Notes under the pieces: generated by a model
Databases searched by the model: none
Seen by the model: the letters and a program-made list of their open reading frames with translations, nothing else
What the model was told of the DNA's origin: nothing
Assembly: GCA_015062825.1 (NCBI GenBank)
Contig: SUTR01000011.1
Location: 1 to 53,965, forward strand
Source of the DNA: Methanosphaera stadtmanae
GTDB lineage: Archaea > Methanobacteriota > Methanobacteria > Methanobacteriales > Methanobacteriaceae
Direction of reading: 5' to 3'
Length of the DNA: 53,965 nt
Made by a program: the position numbers and the translations under genes
In this document: positions 5,933-46,891 of the stretch, one piece after another
Position numbering within the stretch: the stretch's first letter is position 1
Layout: each line of letters begins with the position of its first letter

Positions 5933-6126
5933 TAATATATAATTATATATAACAATATTGATTAATGTTATGGAAAATAATTGGAATAAGTAAAAAAATT
6001 AATCTTGAAAAATAGAAGATGTCACTTAAAGCAAGTCCCTGTTACAATAAGTAATTAATTAGTTAAAGAATTAGAAAAAATATTATGAATAATAAAAATC
6101 AAGAAAAAAAATAATGAGAAAATTAC

Positions 6127-6951
6127 TTAGTAATTTCCTCTTTTTCTGTTATGGTTGTAGATAAAGTTTAGTAAATCTGTTTTTGAAACTATTCCATGTA
6201 CTTTATTATTTTCATCTGCTATAGGCATTCCACTAAATTCTTTGGTAACCATTACATTAGCTACTTGACTTATTGTATCATTTTTATCTGCTGTTTCAAT
6301 TGTTTGTGACATTACTTCCTGTACAAATAAGTTTCTTATTTGGGAATGCTGATATTTTTCAGGTACATGTTTTTTAAAGTCAATAATAGTTTTTGCTAAG
6401 TCCTTAGCTGTGAGTATTCCCATTATTGCTCCAGAGTTTACAACCACTAGACGACGAACTTTATTATCTATCATTAATCTTCTTGCATGAACTATTCTTT
6501 CATCAGGGCCAATTGTAACTACCCGTTTAGTCATGATTTCCTTAATAGCAACTTCATTATAAGGTTCTTTATCTAAATCAACCAAGAAGTCTGTTTTTGT
6601 AACCATTCCAACAATTTCATCTTCATCCATTATTGGAACACCACCAATATGATTATCTACCATCGTTTTTAAAACAGTTAATAAAGAATCAGATGGTTTG
6701 GCCGTGATAACATCTTGTGTCATTATTGTTGAAATACGAATATGAGATAATGGTACAGTTTCATACTTTGCAGATGCTATTTTAGTTGCAATGTCACTTT
6801 CAGTGATAATACCTACTAATTCACCAGTTTTAGGTGCTATTGCAGGCAATCTGGAAATTTTATGTTTGTTCATTAGTTTTATTGCATCTGCTACTGTTTG
6901 ATCTTTACGTACTGTAACTATATTTTTAGCCATCACTTTATCGATTGTCAT
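6127..6951 (-). CDS. protein of four CBS domains
   Basis: This 274-residue protein consists only of two Bateman modules (four CBS repeats). Each repeat shows the typical pattern of a T-V-(K/A)-x-D start, a GV/GI-P-I-x-D strand and a G(I/M)(V/I)(T/S)-x-x-D/K-L ending (for example LVGIITESDIA and IVGMVTKTDF). CBS pairs bind adenine nucleotides or SAM and report energy state. There is no attached catalytic domain, so the partner is unknown. A ribosome site (AAGGGAGT) precedes ATG 6951. It is one of three CBS genes in a row on this strand. Confidence 0.9.
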   Translation of the reverse strand: MTIDKVMAKNIVTVRKDQTVADAIKLMNKHKISRLPAIAPKTGELVGIITESDIATKIASAKYETVPLSHIRISTIMTQDVITAKPSDSLLTVLKTMVDNHIGGVPIMDEDEIVGMVTKTDFLVDLDKEPYNEVAIKEIMTKRVVTIGPDERIVHARRLMIDNKVRRLVVVNSGAIMGILTAKDLAKTIIDFKKHVPEKYQHSQIRNLFVQEVMSQTIETADKNDTISQVANVMVTKEFSGMPIADENNKVHGIVSKTDLLNFIYNHNRKRGNY

Positions 6952-7049
6952 TTCTATCGACTCCCTTGATTTTTTTTAATAGTACAATATATTATTATCT
7001 ATAACATTGCTTAAAAATGTATAGATAAATATTGTGTATACGAAATTTA

Positions 7050-7988
7050 TTATTCAGCAATTGATTTGAGTAAATCACGTATTGTTATAATTCCAATTAA
7101 CTTGTTAGTTTCGTCATCAACAACAGGCAATCCACGAATATTAGAATCCATCATTATTTGTGCAACATCACTTAATTTATCATATTTTGATACTGTTTTT
7201 ATATCAGTAATCATCAGTTGATCAATGGTTACATCAACTACATCATCCCCTTCATTTGAGAATAATTTAGCAAATAGCTTATGATCTCCTATGTATTTAA
7301 GAATATCTGATGCTGTGATAAATCCTAAGAGTTTTTCTTCATTAGTGCTACTTTTTTCATCTTCACCAACAATTGGCACTCTTCTTAAGGAATTTCTAAC
7401 CATTATTTTTGTTATTCCTTCTATTCTAGTACCAGGAGTGGTTGTTATAAGATCTGTAGCCATTACATCCTGGACATCTTTTTTAGCTACTAATTTGTTT
7501 AATTTATCGACGACATCTCCTTCAGTGATTATTCCAACTATCTTATCATCACTGTTAACTATTGGAAAACCACCAAGGTCTTCTTCAAGCATGAGAGTTG
7601 CTGCATCAATGATTGTGTCCTTGTTAGACATTGTTTTAACGCCGGTTGTCATGATTTCTTTGATTGGTGCATTTATTGCTGATAGGAAGTTTCCCTGATG
7701 TTTTTCTGTTATTAAATTGTATTTTTTTCCTCCTCCAAAGAAGTCTAAAATATCCATTGTAGTTACTATACCAAGTAATTTTCCACTTCCCGGATCAGTT
7801 ATAGGTATTCTTCTGATATCTTTTTGACTCATGAGGTTTGCTATTTCTATTATTGTGGAACTTTGTGAAGCTGTTACTACATCTTTAAATGCAATATCCA
7901 TTATGTCCCCATCAGTGTCTGGTTTTCTTGTTGTTTGTAAGTTAATTGAATCATATGATTTTATTTTATTGATTAGTTTATTTCTCAT
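7050..7988 (-). CDS. protein of four CBS domains
   Basis: This 312-residue protein has four CBS repeats at about residues 25-100, 105-170, 175-245 and 250-312, after an N-terminal stretch of about 25 residues. The ends of the repeats read KLLGIVTTMDIL, IVGIITEGDVV, LLGFITASDIL and LIGIITIRDLL. A strong ribosome site (AGGAGAT) precedes ATG 7988. Binding of adenine nucleotide is known for the family but the partner is not. It resembles the neighbour at 6127-6951 closely enough to suggest old duplication. Confidence 0.9.
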   Translation of the reverse strand: MRNKLINKIKSYDSINLQTTRKPDTDGDIMDIAFKDVVTASQSSTIIEIANLMSQKDIRRIPITDPGSGKLLGIVTTMDILDFFGGGKKYNLITEKHQGNFLSAINAPIKEIMTTGVKTMSNKDTIIDAATLMLEEDLGGFPIVNSDDKIVGIITEGDVVDKLNKLVAKKDVQDVMATDLITTTPGTRIEGITKIMVRNSLRRVPIVGEDEKSSTNEEKLLGFITASDILKYIGDHKLFAKLFSNEGDDVVDVTIDQLMITDIKTVSKYDKLSDVAQIMMDSNIRGLPVVDDETNKLIGIITIRDLLKSIAE

Positions 7989-8036
7989 TTTTTTTTATCT
8001 CCTGTGTATTGGTTAATTTGTATTTTTGTTGAATAT

Positions 8037-8615
8037 CTATTCATCATCAGAGTCATCTATGCAACTTGAACATAAAAATTGTCCATCTACATTTTCAAGT
8101 TGATCATAAACACCACATTTTTCACATACGCCTTCATCAAGGTTTTCGTCATAATCTGTTTTGTAGTTTATATCATCGTTATACGTTTTTTCATCAATAT
8201 TACTCTTTTCAACAAATACATCTATTAATTCTGGAGAAACACCGACAATATCAGTTTGTGATATTATACCTTTTAATTCTTCATCATCCATAACTAATAA
8301 TAGTTTTGTATTGTTTTCCTTCATTAATTTTGAAGCTTCAATTAATGAGGAATTTGGGCTAATACTGACAAATTTGGTCATGATCATATCTGCTGTGATA
8401 TCCTGTGGTGAGATATTTTTTGATACAACCTTAGAGATTATACTACTACTTGTTACAATACCTTCAACCTTTTGATTAAGTATAACCACGGAACTTATAT
8501 CATTATCAGTCATTATAGTTGCTATTTCAGATATATTAGCATCAACAGATGCTGTGATAACATTATAAGTCATTGCATCTTTAATACCAATGTCATTTTT
8601 CATTTCTAAATCCAT
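8037..8615 (-). CDS. CBS-pair protein with C-terminal zinc ribbon
   Basis: Two CBS repeats (residues about 8-120) are joined through an acidic linker to a C-terminal CxxC...CxxC zinc ribbon (CEKCGVYDQLENVDGQFLCSSC). The fusion of a ligand-sensing pair to a nucleic-acid or protein-binding ribbon suggests a regulator. I prefer ATG 8615: a GTG three codons further upstream is too close to the ribosome site (CGGAG). A TATA box (GTTTATATAAG, minus strand, 8679-8689) lies at a normal distance, so this gene probably heads the CBS cluster transcript. Confidence 0.85.
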   Translation of the reverse strand: MDLEMKNDIGIKDAMTYNVITASVDANISEIATIMTDNDISSVVILNQKVEGIVTSSSIISKVVSKNISPQDITADMIMTKFVSISPNSSLIEASKLMKENNTKLLLVMDDEELKGIISQTDIVGVSPELIDVFVEKSNIDEKTYNDDINYKTDYDENLDEGVCEKCGVYDQLENVDGQFLCSSCIDDSDDE

Positions 8616-8624
8616 GTTAATCAC

Positions 8625-8973
8625 TACTCCGTGTGTTATTAAAAATTCTAATAACCTAATAATACTTATAGCATTACTTATATAAACTCTTTTAATTTTT
8701 TTAAATTAAAATAATATGGTAATTTGTAACTATAAAAATTTTTTATAAAAAAATTAAAATAAACTTAAAAAAATTGAAAAACAGACTTAAACTATTATAT
8801 AATAGGAATTACATATGTAATAGTGAGTAAAATTATTACTAAAAAAATTTATATACCCACATAAATTTTAATAATTTTATATTATTATTTTTTTTTGAAA
8901 GCTTTTTACAATATTTATCCTAGAATTAACTTAATTATTAAAAAAGAGAGGATTAAGTTAAATATATTAAATA
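8625..8973. other. 349-bp intergenic region with a CBS-gene promoter and three dyads
   Basis: No open frame of note. The right side receives the 3' end of queE. The left side carries the TATA box of the CBS-zinc-ribbon gene (8679-8689, minus strand). Between them lie two perfect palindromes, CTATTATATAATAG (8792-8805) and ATTACATATGTAAT (8808-8821), then AGTAA/TTACT arms just after. The remainder is A/T-rich without further structure that I can see. Confidence 0.6.
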
Positions 8974-9669
8974 TTAATCAATATCCATATATTTATGTAT
9001 TTGAGGAATTATTGATACATTAAAATGTGCACCAATCAATTCTGAAATTTCAAATAGATGCTTTTTATCAGACCATTTGCTCATCGGACTTACCGGTTGA
9101 ACTATTAAATCAACATCTTTTGAACAAAGACTTTTTAAGTCTGTTAAAATATCACTTATCACATCCAATGGGGTTGTATCGCTTACAACTATCTTTAGAT
9201 AATATGAAATATCATCTTCTTCCATTATCCTTATAGATTCTAATTCTTCAGAATATACTTTCTTCCATTGTTCATTGGATGTAAAATGTTCGGGTAGTTT
9301 AATATCCATTGATACAATATCTATTAAGTCTTTTAATTGATGCATTGCATCAGGCACGGTTGCATTGGTTTCAAGCATTGCAGGATAGGGATATTTTTGA
9401 AGAAAATCATGAATGTAATCAGAATGCAATAATGGTTCTCCTCCTGTTATTTCTAATGAATGAAAATCATCCGTCATCAAGGATTGAATTTTATCATTTA
9501 ATTCTTCAAATGACATGTATTTTCCATTATCTAATGATTTGCTATCTATAGTATCACAGTATAGGCAGTTGATATTACATCCTGCAAATCTTATGAAAAT
9601 TTGTCTTTTTCCTATGAGCATTCCTTCTCCCTGTATACTGCTGAAGACTTCATTAATCTTTGATTTAAT
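8974..9669 (-). CDS. queE: 7-carboxy-7-deazaguanine synthase, radical SAM; probable ATT start
   Basis: This enzyme rearranges 6-carboxytetrahydropterin to 7-carboxy-7-deazaguanine on the way to archaeosine. The radical SAM cluster motif CNINCLYC is present. The first ATG in frame (9621) would remove the conserved N-terminal motif, yet the same frame upstream reads INEVFSSIQGEG, the family's start. No ATG, GTG or TTG occurs between that motif and the stop codon at 9700-9702. A Shine-Dalgarno AGGGG (9681-9677) lies 7 bases before an ATT at 9669, giving a protein of about 231 residues. I therefore set the start at ATT 9669. ATT at 9657 or a sequence error are the alternatives. The gene is coupled to queD, whose stop codon touches the ribosome site. 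Confidence 0.85.
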   Translation of the reverse strand: MKSKINEVFSSIQGEGMLIGKRQIFIRFAGCNINCLYCDTIDSKSLDNGKYMSFEELNDKIQSLMTDDFHSLEITGGEPLLHSDYIHDFLQKYPYPAMLETNATVPDAMHQLKDLIDIVSMDIKLPEHFTSNEQWKKVYSEELESIRIMEEDDISYYLKIVVSDTTPLDVISDILTDLKSLCSKDVDLIVQPVSPMSKWSDKKHLFEISELIGAHFNVSIIPQIHKYMDID

Positions 9670-9680
9670 ATTATGACCCC

Positions 9681-10175
9681 TTATTGTTGATTTAGATATT
9701 TACGATATGATGCTCCCTGTCCTATACCTTCATTTACCTGTACTTCAATATAGGAGAGTGTTGATACATCATCTATTTGTTCAACAATCTTTTCTGTAAT
9801 GTATGTGGATAATGTTTCAGCTGTTGTTGATTCGGTTGGAAGAAGTACTACGTCCTGTATTGGTAATTTATATTCCAAACAGTCAAGGACTGTGAATTCT
9901 ATATGTTTATCATCTTGATGTGTTACTTTTAAATCAGGACTATTCAATGGAATCAATACTCTATGATCCAATGTTTTACAGATTTTGCGTGTAATGTCCT
10001 TTAATATTTTAAAGTCTATAACAAAACCAAATCGTCCACTTCGTTGTCCTTCTACTTCCACATCAACTATATAACTATGTCCATGTATTTTTCCACATGA
10101 CTGATGTCCTATTACCATATGTGCTGCTGAAAATCTTAAGTTTGTATGAATTCCATCTAAATTTACTCTCATCAT
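9681..10175 (-). CDS. queD: 6-carboxytetrahydropterin synthase / PTPS family
   Basis: This 164-residue protein has the zinc site of the PTPS/QueD fold: His19 (FSAAH), His31 and His33 (KIHGHSY), with Cys27 as the catalytic cysteine. LDHRVL in the middle and the substrate-binding Glu in EVQVNEG near the end also fit. It converts dihydroneopterin triphosphate to 6-carboxytetrahydropterin, the substrate of QueE, whose gene follows immediately. ATG 10175 and ATG 10172 are both possible starts. Confidence 0.9.
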   Translation of the reverse strand: MMRVNLDGIHTNLRFSAAHMVIGHQSCGKIHGHSYIVDVEVEGQRSGRFGFVIDFKILKDITRKICKTLDHRVLIPLNSPDLKVTHQDDKHIEFTVLDCLEYKLPIQDVVLLPTESTTAETLSTYITEKIVEQIDDVSTLSYIEVQVNEGIGQGASYRKYLNQQ

Positions 10176-10190
10176 ATTATCGTACTTCCA

Positions 10191-10754
10191 TTAGAATACT
10201 TTTGTTTTTGTAATATCTCGTTCTATATCATCCATAAAATTAATATAACTTGTTGCTATTTCATCTTGTAACTGTTTGATATTATTTATATCCATATTAT
10301 CCTCAAGTGATGCTGTTTTAACATCATCGGGCGTTCCATTTATTGTAATATTTAATGCAAAATGTATTTTCATTGAACTTATTGATGCTGTTGCAATGGA
10401 TACTGATAATTTTCCATCACCTACAAATATGTCATCACCATCTTGTGTAGTTTTAACCCCATATTTTAAGAGTATGTCCCTTGTAATCATTACAAGGATT
10501 CTTTGTCTATGATATATTAATCGTAAATTTCCTGGTTGTTCATCAAAGTGCTCTACTATAAAATGTAACATTTTGTTTCCTTTAATGTCCAATCCTACAT
10601 CTTCAAAGTCTATTAAATTATCCCCTAGGATATTCATAGGACCTATCCATGATACTATTGTTGAATCTTTTATCTTAAATTCCTGAAAAGCCCATGATGG
10701 ATTTATTTGACTTCCATCATATTCATTACCGTCTTGCCAATTTTTATATTGCAT
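10191..10754 (-). CDS. DUF366-like archaeal protein
   Basis: This 187-residue soluble protein resembles the archaeal DUF366 family (I recognise [15 protein letters not shown] and [16 protein letters not shown]). No biochemical function is established that I know of. It is the first gene of a run with queD (15 bp gap) and queE, so a role linked to 7-deazaguanine or pterin metabolism is a reasonable inference, not shown. The conserved His/Glu segment (HFIVEHFDE) and the RQRILVMI strand are the most motif-like parts. ATG 10754 is preceded by a weak GAGG ribosome site. Confidence 0.75.
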
Positions 10755-10855
10755 TTGTTATTCCTCAAATAATCTTAGTATTAAATATGTTTTTTAACAA
10801 ATTAGTAATTAACTAAAAAGTATAAAATATATTATTTTTAAGGAAAAATGAAATT

Positions 10856-11890
10856 ATGAATGTTAGAACTCGTTATTACATTGAAACTTATGATGGTTTA
10901 TTTTTTGCCGTAACCAATTATACCCATCCAAAAGATTATGTTATCTCATTTTTACGTTATGTACCATCAGATGATGGAAATCGTAGCTTGAACGGAGTGA
11001 AATATAAAAAAGTGAATAGTTCACAAGCATATAGCATTATAAAAGAGAAGTATCCTAATTACCTTATAGATTGGAATGTTGAAAATAAGAAAATGATGGC
11101 TGTTGCTGTTGAAGACATCAAAAGAATTTACAATCCTATTGAAGGCCTAGAAGACATTAGAAATAAACGTGACACCAATGAATTTTATGAAAAAATTGCA
11201 TTATTGACAGACATATTCCACAATGAATGTGATATTCCCTATAGTGATATGGGAATTAGCGGTTCTACACTTATTGGCTTGGAAGATACTGAGGAATCTG
11301 ATATTGACCTAATTATATTCGGTAGAGAAAATCATAAAAAGGCCAGAGAATATTATGCAAAAGCCAAATATGATAAGAACAGTCCATTAGATTGTATTGA
11401 TGAAAGATATTGGAAGAGGATATTTGATAAACGTATCTTTGATGAAACATTCACTCTTGATGAATTTAGCTGGTATGAATTTAGAAAAAATAATAGAGGC
11501 TTGATTAAAGGAACTTTATTTGATATTTCATTTACTAAAAAATTTGAAGAAATAGAAAATGAAGAAAATTTATATTTTAGACCAATTGGAAATATAAAAA
11601 TAAAATGTCAAATTATAGATGATTCTAAATCTTATGAAACTCCAGCTATATATAATATCAAAGATGTTGAAATTTTAGAAGGGGAAGATAGAATAATTGA
11701 AAAGATAGTTTCATTTACACATACTTATACCGGAATTGTTAAAAATAATGAAAGGATTATTGCATCTGGTGTGTGTGAAGAATGTTTGAATAAAGATACG
11801 GGTAAGAAGACATATAATCTAGTTGTTGGAACTACACGAGAAGCAATAAATGAATATGTGAAACTTGAAAATAACCCTTTAAAAGAATAA
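10856..11890 (+). CDS. predicted archaeal nucleotidyltransferase (COG1665-like)
   Basis: This 344-residue protein has a minimal nucleotidyltransferase core. GS at 136-137 is followed by two metal-binding aspartates in SDIDL (Asp149, Asp151), and a likely third carboxylate lies in LFDISF near residue 222. An N-terminal domain of about 100 residues precedes the core. A C-terminal domain of about 90 residues (FTHTYTGIVKNNERIIASG...LVVGTTREAINEYVKL) may bind nucleic acid. The substrate is unknown. It is divergent from the DUF366-queDE run and convergent with the ACT gene. Confidence 0.75.
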   Translation: MNVRTRYYIETYDGLFFAVTNYTHPKDYVISFLRYVPSDDGNRSLNGVKYKKVNSSQAYSIIKEKYPNYLIDWNVENKKMMAVAVEDIKRIYNPIEGLEDIRNKRDTNEFYEKIALLTDIFHNECDIPYSDMGISGSTLIGLEDTEESDIDLIIFGRENHKKAREYYAKAKYDKNSPLDCIDERYWKRIFDKRIFDETFTLDEFSWYEFRKNNRGLIKGTLFDISFTKKFEEIENEENLYFRPIGNIKIKCQIIDDSKSYETPAIYNIKDVEILEGEDRIIEKIVSFTHTYTGIVKNNERIIASGVCEECLNKDTGKKTYNLVVGTTREAINEYVKLENNPLKE

Positions 11891-11904
11891 AAAATAAGAA
11901 AAAA

Positions 11905-12555
11905 CTACAATACTTCCTTGACTCGACCAATATCAAATTGAGCAGTATTTGCAATACTCATCACTGCCATTACCCCCGCCTGTACCGGATCAGTTACCAC
12001 CAAATCAGCATGATCCCGTACAGAGCCAACCATATTTAAACTTATTACTTTAATACCATACTTTTCTTTTATTTCTTTTATTGAATCAACAATGGTTCCA
12101 CCCATTAAAGAACCAGCCAATACCAATACCTTTACACGAGGAAGACTACCTACTGCACGAATAGTTTGAGTTAAATTCTCTTCACCAACAATAGGTAATG
12201 TATCAACACTTATGTGTTCACCCCTAATGTTATGACGATCTGCTTCTGTAATTGCACCTAATGCTACTTGAGATACTTGTGCTCCCCCACCAATTATTAT
12301 GATTCTTTTTCCCCAAACATCATTCATTGTTGGAGATTGCATAACCTCAAAAACTTCTGAAAATTCACTGATACCTTTAATAATTTCATCAATATCTTCT
12401 ACATTCTCCAGTTCAATATATGTAGAAGCATTACCGTCAGGTTGATTATAAACCTGAGTAAAAATTATATTAACATTCTTTTTAGCAATATAACTAGTGA
12501 TTTTACCCAAAACACCTGGCTTATCCATTGCCCTAATATTTAATGCAAAAGTCAT
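11905..12555 (-). CDS. ACT-domain protein (DUF5612-like)
   Basis: About 216 residues. The first 75 form an ACT amino-acid-binding domain (ALNIRAMDKPGVLGKITSYIA). The rest is an alpha/beta domain with glycine-rich loops (IIIIGGGAQVSQVALGAI, VLVLAGSLMGGTIVDSI) that may bind a nucleotide or cofactor; it matches the archaeal DUF5612 type as I recall it. It likely senses an amino acid, but the ligand is unknown. I take ATG 12555 rather than the in-frame TTG two codons upstream, which lies too near the GAGGT ribosome site. Confidence 0.75.
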   Translation of the reverse strand: MTFALNIRAMDKPGVLGKITSYIAKKNVNIIFTQVYNQPDGNASTYIELENVEDIDEIIKGISEFSEVFEVMQSPTMNDVWGKRIIIIGGGAQVSQVALGAITEADRHNIRGEHISVDTLPIVGEENLTQTIRAVGSLPRVKVLVLAGSLMGGTIVDSIKEIKEKYGIKVISLNMVGSVRDHADLVVTDPVQAGVMAVMSIANTAQFDIGRVKEVL

Positions 12556-12561
12556 AAACAA

Positions 12562-13028
12562 TTTACCTCTATCTTGTTATTAATAGTTACTAATATTAAA
12601 TCTTTATAAAATATTATTTAATGATTGTTTAAATTGTTAATAAAAATAGTCATGCAGGACCTAAAATATATTAGAAACATATCCTAAAAACAATTTCGAA
12701 TAAAAAATATATAAAAAATAATTTAATAGCTATAAAGTAACCTTTATATACTACTTGGTATAAAATAATAATTAGTGGAAAAAACCACAAGCATATTTGA
12801 AAAATGGGTATTATATAACTCCCCTTAAGAAGGATTATAAATATAATTTCACCACATAAAAAATTATATAATATCTAATATTGAAAATATGTACAACACA
12901 TCTTTTTTTAAAACTTTTTTTTATACATATTAATTATTATAAGGGTATTTTCTGTAATTTAAATGGATGATTTATAATAATATTAAAAAACAATGAAAAA
13001 AAAGAGCAAATAAACTTGTTATAAAGAT
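12562..13028. other. 467-bp intergenic region with a possible small plus-strand transcript
   Basis: No coding frame is convincing. On the plus strand a TATA-like box (CCTTTATATACTAC, 12741-12754) is followed about 25 bases later by GTGG-AAAAAA-CCAC (12775-12788). T runs at 12904-12910 and 12919-12925 look like archaeal oligo-T termination sites. The left edge also carries the promoter of the ACT gene on the minus strand. The remainder is A/T-rich filler. Confidence 0.4.
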
Positions 13029-31982: not shown

Positions 31983-32112
31983 CTGTGATTAAAAAATTAA
32001 TATTATATGTTATAATTAACTATTATATATTATTTATATAATAAGTATTATTTAGATGTTTAGTATTAAGTTAGTGTTAAAAACAATTTACAATAAAAAC
32101 CTAGAAAAAAAT

Positions 32113-32135
32113 AATCACCATTAAACAATGATTAA
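32113..32135 (-). terminator. probable terminator downstream of the two-gene block
   Basis: Arms TAATCA / TGATTA surround an 11-base loop, and on the minus strand a T run follows. It lies about 60 bases after the stop codon of the 221-residue membrane protein. Confidence 0.45.
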
Positions 32136-32196
32136 AGAAAAAAAAATAATAAAATGGATTTGAGAATTATCATCTACAACCCAAATAACTTCTCCA

Positions 32197-32862
32197 TTAC
32201 CAAGGATAAAATAATACAATAACTACCAATATACTTGGAACAAAAGCTGATACAATCTTCCAAAAATCCACTTCAATAATTCCCTGCTTAGTCCTTAAAT
32301 CACCTTTATATTTTTCAACTGTACGTGGAAAAAAGATTACAGAGTTAATTAAAAGAAATACTATTAAAGTAATTACTTTCGGAAGAACAGGAATACCCCA
32401 CTCAGTAGGCATCATGAACAAGAAACTAATACCAATCAAGGACATACTACTTACTCCTAAATACCTCTCCAATACATCAATATGACTTATGGGAAAATTA
32501 TAAAAGTCTTCTCCCATAACCTCAGTACCACGCTCTTCATTATAGAAATCGGATCTGAAGATAAGTAAAATTTGATGAACTGTCCATGGCCATAACATAG
32601 GCAACATCATCAAACACCAAGTACGAAAATGTAACGGATCAGGATCAGTAAAGTACATCTGACTTAAAAATACTAAAATACATATTATAGAAAGAAAATA
32701 TCTTAATAATTGACATTTAGCAGTTGCCAATCCTCTTTTTCTTTTTTCATCATATACTGCATACACAGGAATTCCCAATATTTTAGCAATCCAATTTGTA
32801 CCCCAAAAAGACATAAATAATGTAATGACAAAAAATAGAATAAAATGAAAACCTATTGACAT
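32197..32862 (-). CDS. unknown multi-pass membrane protein
   Basis: I do not recognise this 221-residue protein. It has about six hydrophobic segments (near 5-25, 52-70, 84-104, 139-156, 163-182, 200-219), an aromatic-rich loop (LMMLPMLWPWTVHQILLIF) and a long charged loop (SDFYNEERGTEVMGEDFYNF). A ribosome site (GGGAG) precedes ATG 32862, and the upstream gene ends only 5 bp before, so the two are almost certainly co-translated and may act as a pair. Confidence 0.7.
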   Translation of the reverse strand: MSIGFHFILFFVITLFMSFWGTNWIAKILGIPVYAVYDEKRKRGLATAKCQLLRYFLSIICILVFLSQMYFTDPDPLHFRTWCLMMLPMLWPWTVHQILLIFRSDFYNEERGTEVMGEDFYNFPISHIDVLERYLGVSSMSLIGISFLFMMPTEWGIPVLPKVITLIVFLLINSVIFFPRTVEKYKGDLRTKQGIIEVDFWKIVSAFVPSILVVIVLFYPW

Positions 32863-32867
32863 TAAAT

Positions 32868-33626
32868 CTACTCCCTAACCTGATTTATAGCAAGATATGA
32901 TGAATCTCTTGATGTTATATTAAAACCAAAACCCAGCATATCAGATAAAAATGTGGAATTTTTTGTATCAAATATCATTTTAAATACATCATAAATATAA
33001 TTATTACATAACACATTGACTGTTGTCTCAAATGTATTAAATGTCACAAATACAGATGCTCTCAAAAGGTCACCAACTTCCTCACCAAATATCTTTAACT
33101 CCTTATCATATCTATCCAACATTTTAAACATGTTTTTAACATAATTATCTGAATCTTTTGAAACTTTTTTAATCATACTACCTAACCTATAAGGATATTC
33201 TGAAAAAGTCTTAGAATATGTTCTTAAAGGAATTGAATTAAATACTGAATCAATAACTATACTTTCAATCGTTTGATTTTCTGTTTTAGTTAAAAATTCA
33301 CCAACAAATGTAATTACTGCATTTGCTCCACTTTCAAATGCATCATAGAAATACTGTGAATGTTCAGCCAAATGACCCACTCCTTCTGAAATTTTATCAA
33401 CAATACCCACACTTGCCAATTTACTAGATATCAGAGAACCTACTTTTAAAAAAGGAATATTTGTTCCAATATCAACACAGGTCTTACTCACTCTACTCAT
33501 ATTTGTTTCATCCATACTAAAACAGCCATTGGCATCAGCACATATGACAGCTCCTGCAGCAAAAATCAATGAACCTGCAAATGTACCAGGACCGGGAACA
33601 TCAAATACATAACTTCCAACATTCAT
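32868..33626 (-). CDS. unknown protein, partner of the downstream membrane protein
   Basis: I do not recognise this 252-residue protein. The N-terminus has a glycine-rich, weakly hydrophobic segment (GPGTFAGSLIFAAGAVI, about 11-27) followed by CADANGC. The middle is helical and amphipathic (KVGSLISSKLASVGIVDKI, VKNMFKMLDRYDKELKIFGEEVG). An in-frame stop lies eight codons before ATG 33626 and no strong ribosome site is visible. It might be an exported or membrane-associated protein with the 221-residue product as partner. There is no known domain, so no function is assigned. Confidence 0.6.
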   Translation of the reverse strand: MNVGSYVFDVPGPGTFAGSLIFAAGAVICADANGCFSMDETNMSRVSKTCVDIGTNIPFLKVGSLISSKLASVGIVDKISEGVGHLAEHSQYFYDAFESGANAVITFVGEFLTKTENQTIESIVIDSVFNSIPLRTYSKTFSEYPYRLGSMIKKVSKDSDNYVKNMFKMLDRYDKELKIFGEEVGDLLRASVFVTFNTFETTVNVLCNNYIYDVFKMIFDTKNSTFLSDMLGFGFNITSRDSSYLAINQVRE

Positions 33627-33813
33627 CAGTATTTGTCCGGCAAGATTTTAAATAAAAAAATGTTTAATATCAAAACTAATTAAAAAATGTTTAATTTGAT
33701 AAATTTTTTATAATTAGTCATATATAATTTATATATAAGTAAACTATAATAAATATGATGTTTTGATAAGTTTAAAAAAGCAATCAAAAATAAATATATA
33801 ATGGAGGTATTAA

Positions 33814-35424
33814 ATGAGAAAAATAATTACTTTGATATTATTATTAATTATTGCATTTTGTTTAAGTCAATGTGTTTTTGCAAATGATATACATGATATT
33901 GAGAATATTGAAACTAATCAACAATCTAATGAACATTTAGAATCTCAAAACTATAATGAAGAGAAAACATATGACAATCAAAAAAATAATAAATCTTCTA
34001 CTATTTATGAAAAATCAGATGAAATAATACCCAAAGATATAAATGATTTTTATGATACATCTGAAAAGGAATATCTAGTAAAAAATGATGATAACATATC
34101 TGAATATACTATAAATAACATATCCTCTAGAAAACATATTATTACACCTGTAAATATTAATTCAAAACATAAATATGGTATTAGTATTGATAATGTACCC
34201 TATGGAATTATTAAAAAAAGAACGAATATAGTGGTTAATTATATTAATACTGGAAAAAATGAAATAGAAATAAGAGGTAAAATTTTGGATGAAAAAGTTA
34301 AAACATTTGAAAATCAAACACTCCTCATGAGAAAATTGAATAATCATCCCCCCTATATAAATATTCCAGTTAAAAAGGATGGGAGTTTTGAATGTACATT
34401 TGACCCATATGACTTAGATAGTGATATTAATCTTAGATCTCCCGACGATTGGTTCGCGAGTACTGGTGTTGATGTTCCTATTAAAAGAATATATTCAGAA
34501 AATATAGCATATATTGGTGAAAAATCAAATATAACAATCACAATACCTAATCAAAATTATACAGTTGTAAATAAAGGATATTGTATTTTCAAAATCAATG
34601 GTTTAACATTAAAAGATGGTTATAATAATACCATTAAAAGAAATATTGTAGATGGAAAAGTATTGTTTGATTATTTAATTCCTTCAAATTATAAACAAAG
34701 AGATTATTTACTTGAAGCTGTTTATGTTGATAATTCAAACAAATTTTTCCCCGTAAGAATAATTAAAAATATACATGTAATAAATAGAAACTTTGAATTA
34801 CAAATCAATCCAGGCATTAATAGTATTTTTTTAGAAATAGGTTATAGAAAATATGAATTTAAAGTAGCATTATATAAAGATAATCATACTGTAGATAAGG
34901 GATTTGTTATATTTAAGATTAATGGAGTAACTATTAAAGATGAACATAATCAAACACTTAGATATTATTTAAATCCTGAAATAAATAATAATAAATCATT
35001 CATATATCAATTTCCATACCATTGGAGTCAAAAAACTGTTAAGATAACTATCATATATAATGATATTACATATGGTAGAATTGAAAACAGTACTTATATT
35101 CAATTATGGAAAACTCCTATTTACATGACTGTAAATACTACTTTATTAAAATCTCGAAGAGTTATTGTTAAAGGATTTATTAATGACTGGATTAATGAGT
35201 ACGTTACAGGGACCAATATTATTGGAGTAAAAATTAATGGTTTAACATTGAAGGATAAAAATGGTAAAGTTTTATATTTCAGGGCAACTGATGGAAGGAT
35301 TGATTTTAACTTTACATTACCTAAGGAGTATAAAAAAGATAATTATAACATCACTTTAGTTACTGGTGAACGTAGTGCTTATCTGGGAACTAATATAACT
35401 ACAGAATTAAGAAGTAAGCAATAA
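33814..35424 (+). CDS. secreted KINGxTxKD-repeat protein without a beta-helix
   Basis: This 536-residue protein starts with a signal peptide (hydrophobic run, likely cleavage after VFA near residue 23), then an Asn/Glu-rich low-complexity stretch to about residue 100. The rest is Ig-like beta domains. Three contain the family motif: FKINGLTLKDG, FKINGVTIKDE and VKINGLTLKDK. Between repeats are FDYLIPSNYK and FNFTLPKEYK strands. The same module closes the large adhesin-like proteins at 39104 and 41648. There is no C-terminal membrane anchor. A strong ribosome site (GGAGGT) precedes ATG 33814. Probably a cell-surface protein. Confidence 0.8.
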   Translation: MRKIITLILLLIIAFCLSQCVFANDIHDIENIETNQQSNEHLESQNYNEEKTYDNQKNNKSSTIYEKSDEIIPKDINDFYDTSEKEYLVKNDDNISEYTINNISSRKHIITPVNINSKHKYGISIDNVPYGIIKKRTNIVVNYINTGKNEIEIRGKILDEKVKTFENQTLLMRKLNNHPPYINIPVKKDGSFECTFDPYDLDSDINLRSPDDWFASTGVDVPIKRIYSENIAYIGEKSNITITIPNQNYTVVNKGYCIFKINGLTLKDGYNNTIKRNIVDGKVLFDYLIPSNYKQRDYLLEAVYVDNSNKFFPVRIIKNIHVINRNFELQINPGINSIFLEIGYRKYEFKVALYKDNHTVDKGFVIFKINGVTIKDEHNQTLRYYLNPEINNNKSFIYQFPYHWSQKTVKITIIYNDITYGRIENSTYIQLWKTPIYMTVNTTLLKSRRVIVKGFINDWINEYVTGTNIIGVKINGLTLKDKNGKVLYFRATDGRIDFNFTLPKEYKKDNYNITLVTGERSAYLGTNITTELRSKQ

Positions 35425-39103: not shown

Positions 39104-40670
39104 CTAAGTATTGACAACTAAAGTCTTAACATCCTCCAATTTAGGATAATCAGAGGATATAAGTACTGCTGTAATGTTATATTCGCCGGATTTATAATTT
39201 TCAGGCAATGTATACTCTACACTTACAGTGTTATTGGTTACTTTAGCATATATTGTTCTGCCATTAGAATCTTTAACTGTTTTACCGTTGATTTTGAATA
39301 CTACTTTTCCATTGTTGATTATCTTATTGTCATCTGTGAGTGTAGCTTTGAGTGTTATTGTAGAACCACGTGTTGTAGTTATGTCTTCTGCTGTTATCGT
39401 AGGAGTTTGTGCTGTAATGTTTAATTCTTGCTGTTGGCTTCTTAATGATGGACAGTGACTTGAACCGGAATATACTGCGCTGATTGTTATTCCTTCCTTA
39501 GCCCATGATGATGGTATGAAGTAGTTTTCTATTGTTGCTGTACCATTTATTACTTTTGCATAGATTACCTTACCGTTTTCATCTTTTAATGTTTTACCAT
39601 TTACTTTGAATATTACTTTTCCAGCGGTTAAGTTTGTAATTGTTTGATTATCAAAGAGGATATTTGCTCGTATTGTTGCGTTTGTATTTAATGTAAAGTC
39701 CAATGTATCTATAATTAAGTCTAATGTAGGAGTGTTATCTGCTATTGTGTTTGTTTGATTGTCTAAGTTTACTGATGCATCACCATAAGTTGATGAAGAT
39801 AATAAATAATTGTTCATTATTACATTATTTGTACCGTTTCCAGTGATTGTATAATCTAACTTGTTGATTATGCTATTGTTGGTTATGGTTATATTAGATG
39901 CACGGCCAGTTAATGTAATGCTACTATCATCAGATGTTATGTTATTATTATTGATGTATATATTAGAATTGTTTATCTTGAATGATGTTGTGATATTGTT
40001 TTCTTCAAGAACTACATTTTCTCCCAATGTTAAAGATTCAATGATATTGTTATTTTGAACTATAGAATCATTTCCAGCACTTAATGATTTAATAGTATTT
40101 CCAATTATTGTAGAATTAATTATTTGTAATGTATCAAGGGTATTATTTGTAATTATTACATTTGTAGAAGATAAACCTACAGATCCAGTTAAATTATTGT
40201 TATTTAGTATTAAGTTTTTAACTAGAACATCTACACCCTGAACCCATTGTTCTAATATTGCATAATCATTTGCAATTATTGTATTGTTTTCTATTGTTAT
40301 GTTTTCTCCTTGAATTCTTAATGTATTTGCTATTTCATTATCCCTGAGAATACCTCTACCATCAATAACATTTCCTTTTAATGTAATATTATAATTTTCC
40401 CCATCAGTATTATATGTTGTAATGTATACCAGATTTCCTATTTTACCCATGACATTTACATCATCAGTTTCTCCGACAACAGTATTATTTTCAAGTAGTA
40501 CATTGTTTGCTCCGGCAACTACCAGTGTACTATGACCAAAGTTTCCATGAGTCAGGAATTTACTGTTTGTTACATTAATATCACTTGCATAATTTCTTAT
40601 ACTGAATCCAACTACCTTAGATCCAATCTGTTCCATATAATTGGTATATGTGATATTGTTTATTGATACT
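39104..40670 (-). pseudogene. 5'-truncated adhesin-like (beta-helix + KING domain) gene
   Basis: The longest ATG frame (40636, 510 residues) begins inside a beta-helix repeat and has no signal peptide, unlike the 1747-residue family member at 41648. Upstream of that ATG the same frame keeps the repeat pattern (VSINNITYTNYMEQIG), then turns at about 40670 into a hydrophobic A/T-coded stretch with no start codon before a stop at 40730-40732. So the 5' end is missing and this is likely a remnant. What remains is a right-handed beta-helix (NNNITSDDSSITLTGRASN type, about residues 1-300 from the ATG) and two C-terminal Ig-like domains with FKVNGKTLKDE and FKINGKTVKDS. The perfect palindrome CTTAAGTAAATACTTAAG lies at the junction. 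Confidence 0.7.
39570..39598. repeat. 29-bp identity shared with 41799-41827
   Basis: Bases 39570-39598 and 41799-41827 are identical. They code for the KTLKDENGK part of the C-terminal domain in two separate genes. Further, less exact copies lie near 39250-39300 and 42100-42140. Conservation at the DNA level suggests recent conversion or recombination between the genes. Confidence 0.85.
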
Positions 40671-41628: not shown

Positions 41629-41652
41629 GATAAATAGAAGAGTCTATTTATC
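41629..41652 (-). terminator. terminator of the large adhesin-like gene
   Basis: A perfect 10-bp stem (GATAAATAGA / TCTATTTATC) with a 4-base loop spans the stop codon. On the minus strand a long T run follows. Confidence 0.75.
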
Positions 41653-44600
41653 TTACTAATGTGATGTTAGTTGATTCTTCTATGCGCTGATATTGTGTAT
41701 CAATAAATGTTGCTGTGAATGTATAGTTAGCAGGTTTATATGATGTGAGTGTTACATCAAATGTTACCTGACCATCCTGTACTTTTAAGTATATTACTTT
41801 ACCGTTTTCATCTTTTAATGTTTTACCGTTGATTTTGAGTACTACTTTACCTGTATTGATTGGTGTTTGTCCAAGTGTTACTTTTACTGTTATGTTGCTT
41901 GTTTGTCCGATGGTTATCTGTGAATCGGATATTATTTCCATAGTAGGTACTTCTTTTGTAATGTTTATTGTTTCTTTTTGACTTCTTGAGCTTTCATAGT
42001 TTGATGAACCGGAGTATGTTGCTTCTATTGTAAGGTTTTTATCAGCCCATTCTGTTGGCAGAGTATATTCTAGTGTTGCCTTACCGTCTGTAACTTTTAT
42101 GTAGATTACTTTGCCGTTTTCATCTTTAACTGTTTTTCCGTTGATTTTAAAGACCACCTTACCGTTTGTTACTGCTTGTCCAGTTTCATCTGTCACTGCT
42201 GCTGTGATATTAGTTTTTTGTCCTGGTATTAGTGTGAACTGTTCAAATGTTATTGTTGTTGCCGGTTTAATAACGTTTAATGTTATTGTCTGCTGTGCTT
42301 GGTTATATTCATCATTTTGAAGATATACTAATTTGAGTGTGGTGTTTGTTTGCTTATTGAATATGAGTTTGAATGATACTTCAGCATTTGTGATGTTTGC
42401 CACATCAAGTAGATTGTCATTTGCATCTCTAAGCTCTACAATTCCTGTTTCTATTAGCATATCATCTTCATCACTAAATACTGCATTTATAGTTATTTCC
42501 TGGTTAATGTATCCTATCATATCGTTTACTTCTATAGTTACATTTTTCAATTTGATTATTGTTATTGTTGCTGTGGTAATGTTTGTATAATGATTGTCAT
42601 TTTCATAGATTATATCTACTGTGTATATTCCTTTGGTATTGTTGTATTGGAATAATACTTGACCATTTGTTACTTCCATAGTTTGTGTAAGATTATCTAT
42701 TCTGAATTCCAGATTTCCTTCTGTGATTGGTTGGCCCTCAGTATCTGTAACATTAACTGTTAGTTGTGCTATTTCTCCTTCCTGGACTGTTATGTTTTCT
42801 ACTGTTATGAGGATATTTGACAAGTCTGTTATTGGAGTGTTGTTTTCTATTGTATTTTGATATCCATCACCAATTACTGATTCATTACCTGTTGTTGATG
42901 CGACTAGATAATTGTTTGTAATATTGTTTAATGCTGTGCTTGTAAGGTTTACTGCATATGTTGCATTATTAGTATTTGTTTTTAGTGTTATGTTGTTGTA
43001 TGTTATGTTGTTACGTCCGGAATAGGAACTTGATGTGTATTCCCATTTGATTCCGTTTGGATAGCTGTCTATTGCATCATAATTTGTTGTTTGAACATCA
43101 TCCATAGTACTTACTATGTTGATATTGTTATATGACATGTTGCTATATCCTGAACCATATCCTGCAATAGCAGTACTTCGACTTGCATTTGAGGTCATGT
43201 TGTTATAGTTGATGTTGTTGTATTGAGCAAGATATAATTCTACGATGTAGGTTACTGGTGATTTTGAATCTAGGGTATTGTATAATATATTGTTATGATC
43301 TGATGTCATTATTTTATTTGCTTCATCAATTGATGATGAGACATATATGGCATATGTGAATTCATCTGATATTACCTTGATGTTGTTGTTTGTTATGTTG
43401 TTGTATGATGAATTGAATAATTCTATACCGTTTGCATAGGAGTTACTGTAGGTTTCTATTGTATTGTTGTCTATTGTGCTGTTTGCTACTAAGCTGTTAA
43501 ATACAACTCCATATGCATACTTGTCTGCCTGTGTATATATCTTGTTGTTTGTTATCATTGTATTTTGTTGTAATTGTTTATTGGAAGAATTACCTCTTAT
43601 GTCTATTGATTCTATTGTTCCATAAATATCTGATTGACCTGTATAGTTTGTTGTAATTGTATTTGAATCAATTACCAGATTATCTGTTGTTACAGCATTA
43701 ATAGATGAGGTGTATACTTTTGTATTAGCATCATAATTAACATTTTTACTTAGTCCTATTGTTGTAATAGTATTGTTTAGTATTTTTATATCATCTGCAT
43801 CATTTACTATGATTGCATGTGTATCGTTTATGATATTGTTTTCTATTGTTAATGTATTGTTTTCTATTGTTAGGTTTGTTGTTTTGTCTACGAGTATGAG
43901 ATATTCATCATTGTCATTGCTGTTGAACTGAATATCACTGATTATTGTACCGCCTGCCTTTTGTTTAACTATTATGGTACCATTGTTAAATACTGCTTGT
44001 GTTGTTGCTGTTGTTATGTTTAATGGCATTGTTATTATTATGTTTCTATTATTGAATTCTCCTTCAAATTGTAATTCATCGTTAGGATGTATTATATCCT
44101 CTTTAACTGTTCCATCGTCATTGAAGTAGTATGTGAAGTTTCCATCATTAAGCACTACTTTTTGTGGTGTTGGCATTGTTGCCTGAATGTGTAATATATT
44201 GCTTTCTGTGTATGAAGTTACATTTATTGTTGAATCAGCGGATGTTACTGTATAGTTTACTTTTGCAATTCCACCTGTGATGATTGCACTGTCTTGACTG
44301 AAGTTTCCACGATCTGATGTGTAATTAACATATAATGTATCCTGTAATGGTACATCCAAGTCATAATAGTTTGTTCCATCAGTATACTTGTTTAATGTTG
44401 TAGTTACCTCTATGGTATCCTTATAATTTATATTTTCACTAGGATTTACACTGCTGTTTAATACTACCCAATATTTCACTTCTATTGGAGTGCAGTCATA
44501 CTCTTCTTCATCCCATGAGCTGTAGTCATAATATTTTCCAGATCCTACAAGGGATTGTGGAGTGGTATTTGTTGCCCACCAATTATAGTTTGCTACTGCC

Positions 44601-46891
44601 GTAGTTTCTCCTTCTGCTTCATTATATATTGCTTTAACTGTACTTGCATTTAATGCTACCAGTATTGAATGGGATATGTTTAAGTTTCCATTGGCTACAT
44701 AGATTATGGAACCATTGTTTCCATAGGCATAGTTATTGATGAATGTTGAGTTATATACATATAAGTCATCATTACTATAAATTGCTCCTCCTTTACTGCT
44801 CATTGCAGCTCCTGTATTGTTAATGAATATGGAATTAGTTATGTTTGTTTTGTCATTGGTTCTTATTGCCATTCCACTTCCATGGAATGCTGTGTTATTG
44901 ATAAATGATGTGTTGTCTACTGTCATTGGCTGTGATTGACGCATACCATATATTGTTGCAAGGTTTGCTGTGTTGTTTATTATCTGGGAATTGTTTATGT
45001 CAAGTTTTCCACGGTTTTCTATAAGTCCCTGATAATCAGTTCCCGGATTGTAGATATTTTTTATGATTGTATTGTTTATGTTAACTGTACCCTCTGAGAG
45101 TATGACTGTTGCCTGTGAATCTTCTATTGTACAGTTATTCAAGTTTAAGTTACTGTTTCTTGAAACGTTGAGGAATGTTCCCACCATATTTGATCCAAAT
45201 ACTGGTGCTGTACTATTTATTATATGTACATTTTCTAATGTTAGACTACCATTTGTTATATTTGCAAATCTTCCCTGTGCATTTGTATATAATGGATAGG
45301 TATTACCTACATTTATTGTTTCCATATTCTTTACAGTAGCAATAGCTCCATCAACTACATCAAATATACGTTCACCTTTGGCATCCCAAACATGATTGTT
45401 TACATCCAATGTTATTGACTTGTTAAGTATTACACTATCCTCTGAATTTCCACGTCTTATGTCTGATTCCAATGTGATTACATCATTTTCTTGTGCATCA
45501 TCAATCATCTGTTGTATTTGACGATATTTTAGGTATGGTGATTTTGTAACTACTAGATTTGCATCTGATACTATTGGATTTAATACTTCTTCTTCATCAT
45601 TAGCTAAGAATATAATGTAATTTCCCATTTCTATTTCAGCTACTAGATTGAATATTGCAGTACCATTGATGATATTTGAATTATTATGTTCAAGTGTATG
45701 TGTTTCTATGAGGTTATCCTCCATATCATATATGGATATTGTTACTGAGTATAAGTCTATGCTGTTTCCGTTGTCATCAGTCATATTTACTGTGATGTTA
45801 TATTCCATATCTTCCTGTGTTGTTACGTTAGATATCACCATATTTATTGGAGAGAGTATTGTTGCACCATCATTATATATTTCTGCACTTAATCCTTCAC
45901 AGTCATTCATTGTATTGTTTTGTAGGTATGCATTTCCTGATGATAACCATAATGCCCCACCTTTTTTAGCATACATAGTTGTTTCAGTTGTAAGATTATT
46001 GTTAACAAATATGGAATTTGTTAATGTTAAGTTACCATTGGTTCTTATTGCTCCTCCACGAGTAGTTGCAGAGTTGTTTTCAAAGTAACAATTATCTACT
46101 ATGATTTTTTGATTTATGTTATTACAGTATAGTGCTCCACCATAGTTTGAACCATGATTATTTGTAAAGTTTGAATTGGTGATTGTTGCATTTATATTTC
46201 TATTTCTTAGACGTATTGCCCCACCTAATGAATATATATTATCAAATACTGAATCGGATACTATTATATTGGAGTTGGAATTTAGGTCAAACGCTGCTGT
46301 TGAGCATTGATTTTTGGTTGTACAATTTATTAATGATAAGTTTGCATTTGTTTTTATCTCAACCATTGTACCCGTAGTTATGATATTGTTGTCTGTGAAC
46401 GTTACATTGATACATGTAAGGTTACCATTTGTTGTTATTAATGAGTTTGTTCCATTATTTCCAGTAAGTATTATATTTTTAAGTGTGACACTTGCCTTGT
46501 TTGTAATGTCGAATGTTCCGTTTGATGATGATATTGTATGTCCATTTCCATCTATGATTATATCATTGTTTATTGTAATTGCTGTTTCATCATCAGCTTT
46601 TGTATAGTCATTGTTTAATGTGACTTCCTGTTTATCGGTTAGTTCGGCTTCTAAATTTGTGAATGAATCGGCTTCATCACCTTTTAGATTTTTCTTATTA
46701 TTTTCTCCTATATTCTTATAGTTATCAGATGTTACTTGTGAATTATCATAGCTATTATGAATATTTACAGCATCAGTATTATCTGTTGTGCTGTTATCAA
46801 CTGCCTCTGTTGCTGATACTGCTGATAATCCTATGATTGCAAGTAACATTAATGAAAGTATAAGAATCATTGATGTTCTATTTCTTATCAT
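41648..46891 (-). CDS. large adhesin-like protein: beta-helix plus Ig-like KINGxTxKD domains
   Basis: This 1747-residue secreted protein has a signal peptide (about 1-27, ending SAVSA), then three Asn/Thr-rich right-handed beta-helix blocks with pectate-lyase-like repeats (NNSATTRGGAIRTNGNLT type) at about 70-330, 450-770 and 930-1340. Ig-like linkers separate them. Four Ig-like domains follow from about 1362 to the end, the last two with FKINGKTVKDENGK and LKINGKTLKDENGK. Many NxT/NxS sites could be glycosylated. There is no C-terminal membrane segment, so how it attaches to the pseudomurein wall is unclear; the KING domains are candidates. Proteins of this build are thought to act in adhesion to host or bacterial glycans. 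The start is ATG 46891. Confidence 0.88.
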   Translation of the reverse strand: MIRNRTSMILILSLMLLAIIGLSAVSATEAVDNSTTDNTDAVNIHNSYDNSQVTSDNYKNIGENNKKNLKGDEADSFTNLEAELTDKQEVTLNNDYTKADDETAITINNDIIIDGNGHTISSSNGTFDITNKASVTLKNIILTGNNGTNSLITTNGNLTCINVTFTDNNIITTGTMVEIKTNANLSLINCTTKNQCSTAAFDLNSNSNIIVSDSVFDNIYSLGGAIRLRNRNINATITNSNFTNNHGSNYGGALYCNNINQKIIVDNCYFENNSATTRGGAIRTNGNLTLTNSIFVNNNLTTETTMYAKKGGALWLSSGNAYLQNNTMNDCEGLSAEIYNDGATILSPINMVISNVTTQEDMEYNITVNMTDDNGNSIDLYSVTISIYDMEDNLIETHTLEHNNSNIINGTAIFNLVAEIEMGNYIIFLANDEEEVLNPIVSDANLVVTKSPYLKYRQIQQMIDDAQENDVITLESDIRRGNSEDSVILNKSITLDVNNHVWDAKGERIFDVVDGAIATVKNMETINVGNTYPLYTNAQGRFANITNGSLTLENVHIINSTAPVFGSNMVGTFLNVSRNSNLNLNNCTIEDSQATVILSEGTVNINNTIIKNIYNPGTDYQGLIENRGKLDINNSQIINNTANLATIYGMRQSQPMTVDNTSFINNTAFHGSGMAIRTNDKTNITNSIFINNTGAAMSSKGGAIYSNDDLYVYNSTFINNYAYGNNGSIIYVANGNLNISHSILVALNASTVKAIYNEAEGETTAVANYNWWATNTTPQSLVGSGKYYDYSSWDEEEYDCTPIEVKYWVVLNSSVNPSENINYKDTIEVTTTLNKYTDGTNYYDLDVPLQDTLYVNYTSDRGNFSQDSAIITGGIAKVNYTVTSADSTINVTSYTESNILHIQATMPTPQKVVLNDGNFTYYFNDDGTVKEDIIHPNDELQFEGEFNNRNIIITMPLNITTATTQAVFNNGTIIVKQKAGGTIISDIQFNSNDNDEYLILVDKTTNLTIENNTLTIENNIINDTHAIIVNDADDIKILNNTITTIGLSKNVNYDANTKVYTSSINAVTTDNLVIDSNTITTNYTGQSDIYGTIESIDIRGNSSNKQLQQNTMITNNKIYTQADKYAYGVVFNSLVANSTIDNNTIETYSNSYANGIELFNSSYNNITNNNIKVISDEFTYAIYVSSSIDEANKIMTSDHNNILYNTLDSKSPVTYIVELYLAQYNNINYNNMTSNASRSTAIAGYGSGYSNMSYNNINIVSTMDDVQTTNYDAIDSYPNGIKWEYTSSSYSGRNNITYNNITLKTNTNNATYAVNLTSTALNNITNNYLVASTTGNESVIGDGYQNTIENNTPITDLSNILITVENITVQEGEIAQLTVNVTDTEGQPITEGNLEFRIDNLTQTMEVTNGQVLFQYNNTKGIYTVDIIYENDNHYTNITTATITIIKLKNVTIEVNDMIGYINQEITINAVFSDEDDMLIETGIVELRDANDNLLDVANITNAEVSFKLIFNKQTNTTLKLVYLQNDEYNQAQQTITLNVIKPATTITFEQFTLIPGQKTNITAAVTDETGQAVTNGKVVFKINGKTVKDENGKVIYIKVTDGKATLEYTLPTEWADKNLTIEATYSGSSNYESSRSQKETINITKEVPTMEIISDSQITIGQTSNITVKVTLGQTPINTGKVVLKINGKTLKDENGKVIYLKVQDGQVTFDVTLTSYKPANYTFTATFIDTQYQRIEESTNITLVR

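Follow-up and report, generated by a model that had tools for sequence, protein, structure and literature searches.

Introduction

In topology, the immunity protein of a pore-forming colicin is a cognate integral-membrane protein, and in bacterial polymorphic toxins a glycine-rich hydrophobic pre-toxin segment often precedes the toxin. According to PMC3482391, most archaeal lineages lack polymorphic toxins, the exceptions being certain methanoarchaea and haloarchaea. Orphan cdiA-CT genes generally lack initiation signals (PMC3150448), and the gene pair described here is in that state. The VARTIG modules of Thermococcales were stated to have no counterparts outside that order (PMC8416519). In both M. 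smithii and M. stadtmanae, more than 10% of the genome is taken up by adhesin-like proteins of largely unknown function (PMC11532034).

In this study, we analysed a stretch of 53,965 nucleotides from Methanosphaera stadtmanae (contig SUTR01000011.1 of assembly GCA_015062825.1), referred to hereafter as the window. We consider it likely that a two-gene block in the window is an orphan toxin-immunity cassette, belonging to a polymorphic-toxin-like system of the Methanobacteriales.

Results

Features of the gene pair

An initial reading of the window, made from the sequence only, had singled out two genes lying 5 bp apart, the first encoding 252 residues, and the coordinates, lengths and spacing were borne out. 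Both genes are on the minus strand, and they are called TOX and IMM here after their predicted roles. The features mapped in and around the pair were as follows.

32868..33626, minus strand: TOX, 252 aa, an orphan C-terminal tip (predicted toxin domain), assigned by homology and a leave-one-out profile
32197..32862, minus strand: IMM, 221 aa, a six-TM partner (predicted immunity protein), assigned by hydrophobicity and a leave-one-out profile
33513..33647, minus strand: glycine-rich hydrophobic hairpin and GAxICADANG motif, conserved across the tip family; includes 7 codons (NLAGQIL) 5′ of the TOX ATG
32871..33512, minus strand: variable helical C-terminal portion of the TOX tip; the same type occurs elsewhere only as remnants, in genomes G004 and G014
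32293..32334, minus strand: FFPRTVEKYKGDLR, a variant in IMM of the family signature F-x-D-x-[IVL]-N-K-x(n)-D-[ILV]-R, from family alignments
32870..32875, minus strand: GGGAGT, a plausible IMM ribosome-binding site, overlapping the TOX stop codon
31983..35463, unstranded: strain-specific insert made up of TOX, IMM and a small adhesin-like gene at 33814-35424

Both reading frames are open over their whole length. Hydrophobicity scoring gave TOX one clear hydrophobic segment (aa 20-38), within the glycine-rich hydrophobic N-terminus that had been described, and gave IMM six such segments, in agreement with the six helices that had been proposed for it; the flanks of the pair proved to be A/T-rich, as reported. 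IMM keeps its ribosome-binding site and the family signature, and no ribosome-binding site was found ahead of the TOX ATG. The sequence-only reading had also credited the pair with its own terminator-like hairpin. An A/T-rich stem with T-runs behind it does lie at ~32100-32190, but its folding was no better than that of shuffled sequences (z = -0.88) and a terminator scan found none near the pair; this hairpin was rejected.

Neither protein had been assigned to a known family, and our searches agreed: TOX and IMM matched nothing meaningful in Pfam, NCBIfam, PADLOC or PDB sequences, and a search of PDB sequences with profiles of the tip and partner families (defined below) also returned nothing. 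Predicted models built from two-row alignments had pLDDT values of 33 and 47 for the two proteins, too poor for fold comparison. As grounds for abandoning its proposal, the initial reading had named a clear match to a housekeeping family, or two genes that are not conserved together. Profile searches with both proteins gave no housekeeping match, on which that candidate was rejected, and the pair was found to be conserved together, as two families.

Insertion site of the pair

The insert lies between a FAD/NAD-disulfide oxidoreductase-like gene and a cfbD-like gene. In the window these two genes are ~3.5 kb apart; in 15 of 16 relatives they are separated by 78-137 bp, and in the remaining one (G003) by 433 bp. 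Neither the pair nor remnants of it were present at this site in any of the 16 relatives. The third gene of the insert (33814-35424, plus strand) encodes a small adhesin-like protein of 536 aa with a signal-peptide-like start and Ig-like repeats, is divergent from TOX, and carries no tip of the TOX family. Two more adhesin-like genes of the window, at 39104-40636 and 41648-46891 on the minus strand (510 and 1747 aa), do not match the tip profile either.

TOX as a 5′-truncated tip of giant surface proteins

When TOX was used as a single query against 41 genomes, it matched itself and the extreme C-terminal ends of two open frames of 2382 and 2395 aa, located in two genomes. The matching portion is the N-terminal part of TOX, set against the C-termini of these ~2.4-kaa surface proteins; the part held in common is the glycine-rich hydrophobic hairpin and, after it, a GAxICADANG-like motif. 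A tip profile built without TOX recovered it at E = 3.5e-17, compared with 0.004 for the next protein of the window (the other window proteins served as controls in the leave-one-out tests). A locus search with a narrow tip alignment yielded one locus, in Methanosphaera sp. RUG.228.

The TOX frame and its homology extend 7 codons 5′ of the ATG, up to a stop codon at 33648-33650, and the upstream residues NLAGQILM align with RLCGNVIM, TVGSILM and RFVGSTLM of the homologues. Because the homology upstream of the ATG ends at this stop codon, TOX is, on sequence grounds, a tip truncated at its 5′ end, and the window copy starts mid-domain after a stop. Such a copy cannot deliver anything; its tip is a spare one or a relic. 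With the delivery part lost, TOX probably either acts as a silent DNA donor in tip exchange or is a relic; IMM is still translatable and may give protection from kin bearing a TOX-type tip.

Decay may have gone further, leaving in the window a pair that is nothing more than a functionless relic. TOX lacks both a delivery part and initiation signals, and the TOX-type variable part occurs as a frameshifted pseudogene in G004 and as a 112-aa remnant in G014. The fully open frames, together with the ribosome-binding site and signature that IMM has kept, argue against this explanation, and we regard it as rather unlikely. It concerns the window copy and is compatible with a toxin-immunity function for the family as a whole.

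Carrier proteins of the tips

Relatives of the TOX tip are carried by adhesin-like surface proteins of 0.8-2.4 kaa in Methanosphaera and other Methanobacteriales, and many further copies of this surface-protein tip system occur in the same genome and in the order. The full-length relatives have signal-peptide-like N-termini together with Ig-like repeats or beta-helices, and an archaeal Big domain or right-handed beta-helix with a membrane anchor is found in them; the window copy, being a fragment, has neither this architecture nor the part bearing export signal and repeats. In Pfam searches, the 2382- and 2395-aa carriers contained Big_3_5 repeats and a papain-like Peptidase_C1 domain, and one of them also contained Lectin_like. 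Other carriers contained CHB_HEX_C/Fn3_assoc (chitobiase/Fn3-associated) repeats, PMBR (pseudomurein-binding repeats) or Beta_helix. These carriers belong to the adhesin-like protein class of PMC11532034.

Hydrophobicity scoring gave each tip one or two hydrophobic stretches of ~20 aa. In many tips little follows beyond ~110 aa after the hairpin, and this stretch has no catalytic motif; no known toxin domain was found in the tips in Pfam, NCBIfam or PDB. Two unusual tip genes were also observed. At L015 (7952-8845, minus strand), a tip is fused in frame to an N-terminal HxlR/MarR-like, DNA-binding-looking domain, apparently as a recombination product. At L070 (4393-4776, minus strand), a 127-aa orphan tip fragment lies behind the partner of the full-length gene 5700-12842 and is nearly identical to part of that gene's tip, reflecting a recent duplication or an assembly effect.

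The carriers bear directly on the functions that had been offered for the pair, namely toxin-immunity, bacteriocin-like or transport. A transporter pair was rejected. That the two genes form a free-standing bacteriocin-like or transport system, unrelated to surface proteins, appears very improbable to us: the window copy has no delivery part, and a hairpin protein next to a membrane protein resembles bacteriocin-immunity pairs, but homologous tips are fused to surface proteins of 0.8-2.4 kaa in most genomes, and the window copy begins inside a domain with no ribosome-binding site. Of the three options, toxin-immunity is the one favoured by the comparative evidence; the pair itself is better described as the detached cassette of a larger system than as a system standing on its own.

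The IMM family and its linkage to tips

The partners of the tips are small multi-pass membrane proteins of one family, which shares the signature given above, and every tip-linked partner that was scored had 4-7 hydrophobic/TM segments. A partner profile built without the IMM row recovered IMM at E = 1.4e-9; the best other protein of the window scored 0.53. As a single query IMM matched only itself, and for this reason its membership of the family is based on profiles and context. Pairwise BLAST of IMM against related partners gave weak values (E = 0.47 and 8e-5).

Of the 20 Methanosphaera genomes covered by profile searches, 12 yielded tips and 15 yielded partners. Among 17 genera of the family, tips were found in 4 and partners in 8, the latter count being affected by the possibility that outside Methanosphaera the partner profile also catches unrelated membrane proteins. 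Beyond this family, pairs of tip and partner are present in two more families of the order. As measured in the fetched loci, a same-strand family partner lies downstream of 27 of 30 tip frames, in 25 cases within -38 to +54 bp; the other three frames are a frameshifted pseudogene, a 127-aa fragment and one whose overlapping partner fell below threshold. Each giant gene has a partner gene directly 3′ of it, usually overlapping. At a later locus, outside these 30 (G002:C43), the nearest partners of the tip are on the opposite strand and convergent. Tip and partner distances were correlated (Mantel r = 0.75, p = 1e-4, 23 pairs), a co-divergence of adjacent genes to which linkage alone contributes.

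Additional variation was noted among the partners. One subgroup, found behind ~2.4-kaa carriers, has a zinc-ribbon-like N-terminal CxxC domain before the TM region (L016 7376-8254, L013 9013-9891, L069, L070 and L074). At L078 (15359-16430, plus strand), two overlapping membrane-protein genes lie 314 bp behind a 1239-aa tip-bearing gene, and only the second matches the partner profile. At L013 (9013-11025, plus strand), two partner genes in tandem hardly differ in their first ~140 aa but diverge beyond that point, a mosaic that suggests recombination or focused diversification.

Hallmarks of polymorphic toxins

Several features of the loci recall polymorphic toxins. In G003, three paralogues of ~1070 aa share mostly 80-100% identity across their first ~500 aa; in the tip the figure drops to 14-37%. 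Orphan arrays, in which a tip gene and partner are followed by a tip fragment and/or a further partner, were found at G000:C57, G004:C4, G002:C20 and G015:C20 and in G003; moreover, G000:C103 has two tandem pairs of tip fragment and partner. Roughly a dozen partners are intact while their tip is missing or reduced to a remnant of 68-160 aa. In contrast to these tip-less partners, no intact tip was found without an adjacent partner. Where partners occur in tandem, the copies are mosaics that combine near-identical with diverged halves. Partner dN/dS was 0.6-1.1 in one subgroup, and 0.18, indicating purifying selection, for the orphan partner of a truncated tip. As read from gene order and divergence, the logic of these loci is that of the polymorphic toxins (CDI/Rhs), and the window pair is an orphan tip with its partner.

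The same observations bear on an alternative in which the tip would anchor the protein in the membrane at its C-terminus or act as a sorting signal, with the partner as a dedicated factor for anchoring, export or processing that has to match its client. Helices that anchor adhesin-like proteins in the membrane are known, some of them C-terminal, but 39 of 42 such proteins of M. stadtmanae have a single anchor, which is N-terminal (PMC11532034). The hydrophobic hairpin that opens each tip could be an anchor and not a weapon, and a matched chaperone would likewise be consistent with the co-divergence and the translational overlap. An anchoring factor does not readily explain, however, why partners persist intact where the client is missing or has been cut to a remnant, why the tips vary more than the rest of the protein, or why partner dN/dS reaches about 1; client-less tandem orphan pairs make no sense for such a factor. 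We consider this alternative improbable, and prefer to view tip and partner as a predicted toxin and its immunity protein.

Discussion

Tips with a hydrophobic hairpin and partners with 4-7 TM segments form the combination known from pore-forming colicins. On this basis, the conserved hairpin and the always-membranous partner suggest a colicin-like attack on membranes. The hydrophobic stretch could instead be a translocation or pre-toxin segment of a polymorphic toxin, in which the variable helical remainder would be toxic, with a target that is intracellular or enzymatic. In favour of this, variability is highest in the helical C-terminal part, and a glycine-rich hydrophobic segment ahead of it fits the bacterial precedent. 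Many tips have little beyond the ~110 aa that follow the hairpin and no catalytic motif, however, and the partners found are without exception integral membrane proteins; a cytoplasmic enzyme is usually countered by a soluble immunity protein. This second way of dividing the tip therefore seems doubtful to us, and membrane attack is the activity assumed in what follows.

The model that we infer covers secretion and delivery, toxicity, a membrane target, neutralisation and a role as recombination donor. In an intact system, a large, secreted and surface-displayed adhesin-like stalk would carry the variable tip to neighbouring cells, with pseudomurein-binding repeats possibly giving attachment to the wall. 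The tip would be released or presented at the target, perhaps with the aid of the papain-like domain, and its hairpin would insert into the cytoplasmic membrane of the target cell and depolarise or perforate it. In the membrane of the producer, the multi-pass partner would bind and neutralise the cognate hairpin, as do the immunity proteins of pore-forming colicins.

On a broader scale, we lean somewhat towards the existence of a widespread contact-dependent toxin system in gut and rumen methanogens. Part of the adhesin-like class would then serve as delivery stalks on which membrane-attacking tips can be exchanged, each tip being matched by a membrane immunity protein. Orphan cassettes like that of the window would supply diversity, and the targets might be other methanogens with pseudomurein walls. 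If some adhesin-like proteins are carriers of polymorphic tips with partners, these gain a testable function in competition and kin discrimination among gut and rumen methanogens, and tips and partners could serve as tools against methane-producing archaea. No report of a tip/partner system in Methanobacteriales was found in the literature examined, which leaves out Makarova et al. 2019 (mBio), where some of the genes may be listed.

Comparison with known systems

CDI and Rhs systems (PMC3150448, PMC3482391) have in common with the methanogen loci a big secreted surface protein with a conserved N-terminus and a variable C-terminal tip, a small cognate partner directly downstream, tandem orphan pairs without translation starts, and partners kept without tips. 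The methanogen system differs in that it lacks CdiB, a VENN or DPxGL motif, RHS repeats and a recognisable toxin domain; its carriers are archaeal adhesin-like proteins of pseudomurein-walled cells, and all partners found in it are multi-pass membrane proteins of one family. CDI proper was rejected, as the scanned carriers had no haemagglutinin/two-partner-secretion Pfam domain and the tips examined had no VENN; Rhs proper was likewise rejected, as the scanned carriers had no RHS domains.

Pore-forming colicins (PMC9517006) share with the tips a helical domain with a hydrophobic hairpin, and the multi-pass partner corresponds, in its predicted role, to the colicin membrane immunity proteins. 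Of the colicin channel domain, marked by the hairpin of helices 8/9, the hydrophobic hairpin is present in the tips; a PDB sequence match was not obtained and the fold model was poor. The two differ in that no sequence relation is detectable and that the tip ends a giant surface protein, whereas the colicin is imported by Tol/Ton.

The adhesin-like proteins of Methanosphaera and Methanobrevibacter (PMC11532034) correspond to our carriers in their archaeal Big or beta-helix repeats; a papain-like protease or pseudomurein-binding repeats are present in part of them. Variable tips and partners do not figure in that paper, and the words toxin, immunity and effector are absent from it. The archaeal polymorphic toxins covered in the passages of PMC3482391 examined (Methanosarcina RHS, barnase-barstar-like and haloarchaeal PVC) follow the same toxin-immunity logic; those described there are mainly nuclease-type or PVC-delivered, and adhesin-like carriers of Methanobacteriales with membrane-type tips are not among them. 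Finally, the VARTIG modules (PMC8416519) differ in that their variable part is an Ig domain, whereas the tips described here are helical with a hydrophobic hairpin. They nevertheless resemble our loci in being archaeal, in having a large Ig-domain protein with a hypervariable C-terminus followed by membrane-protein genes, and in containing short homologues of the C-terminal region; they too have been likened to polymorphic toxins.
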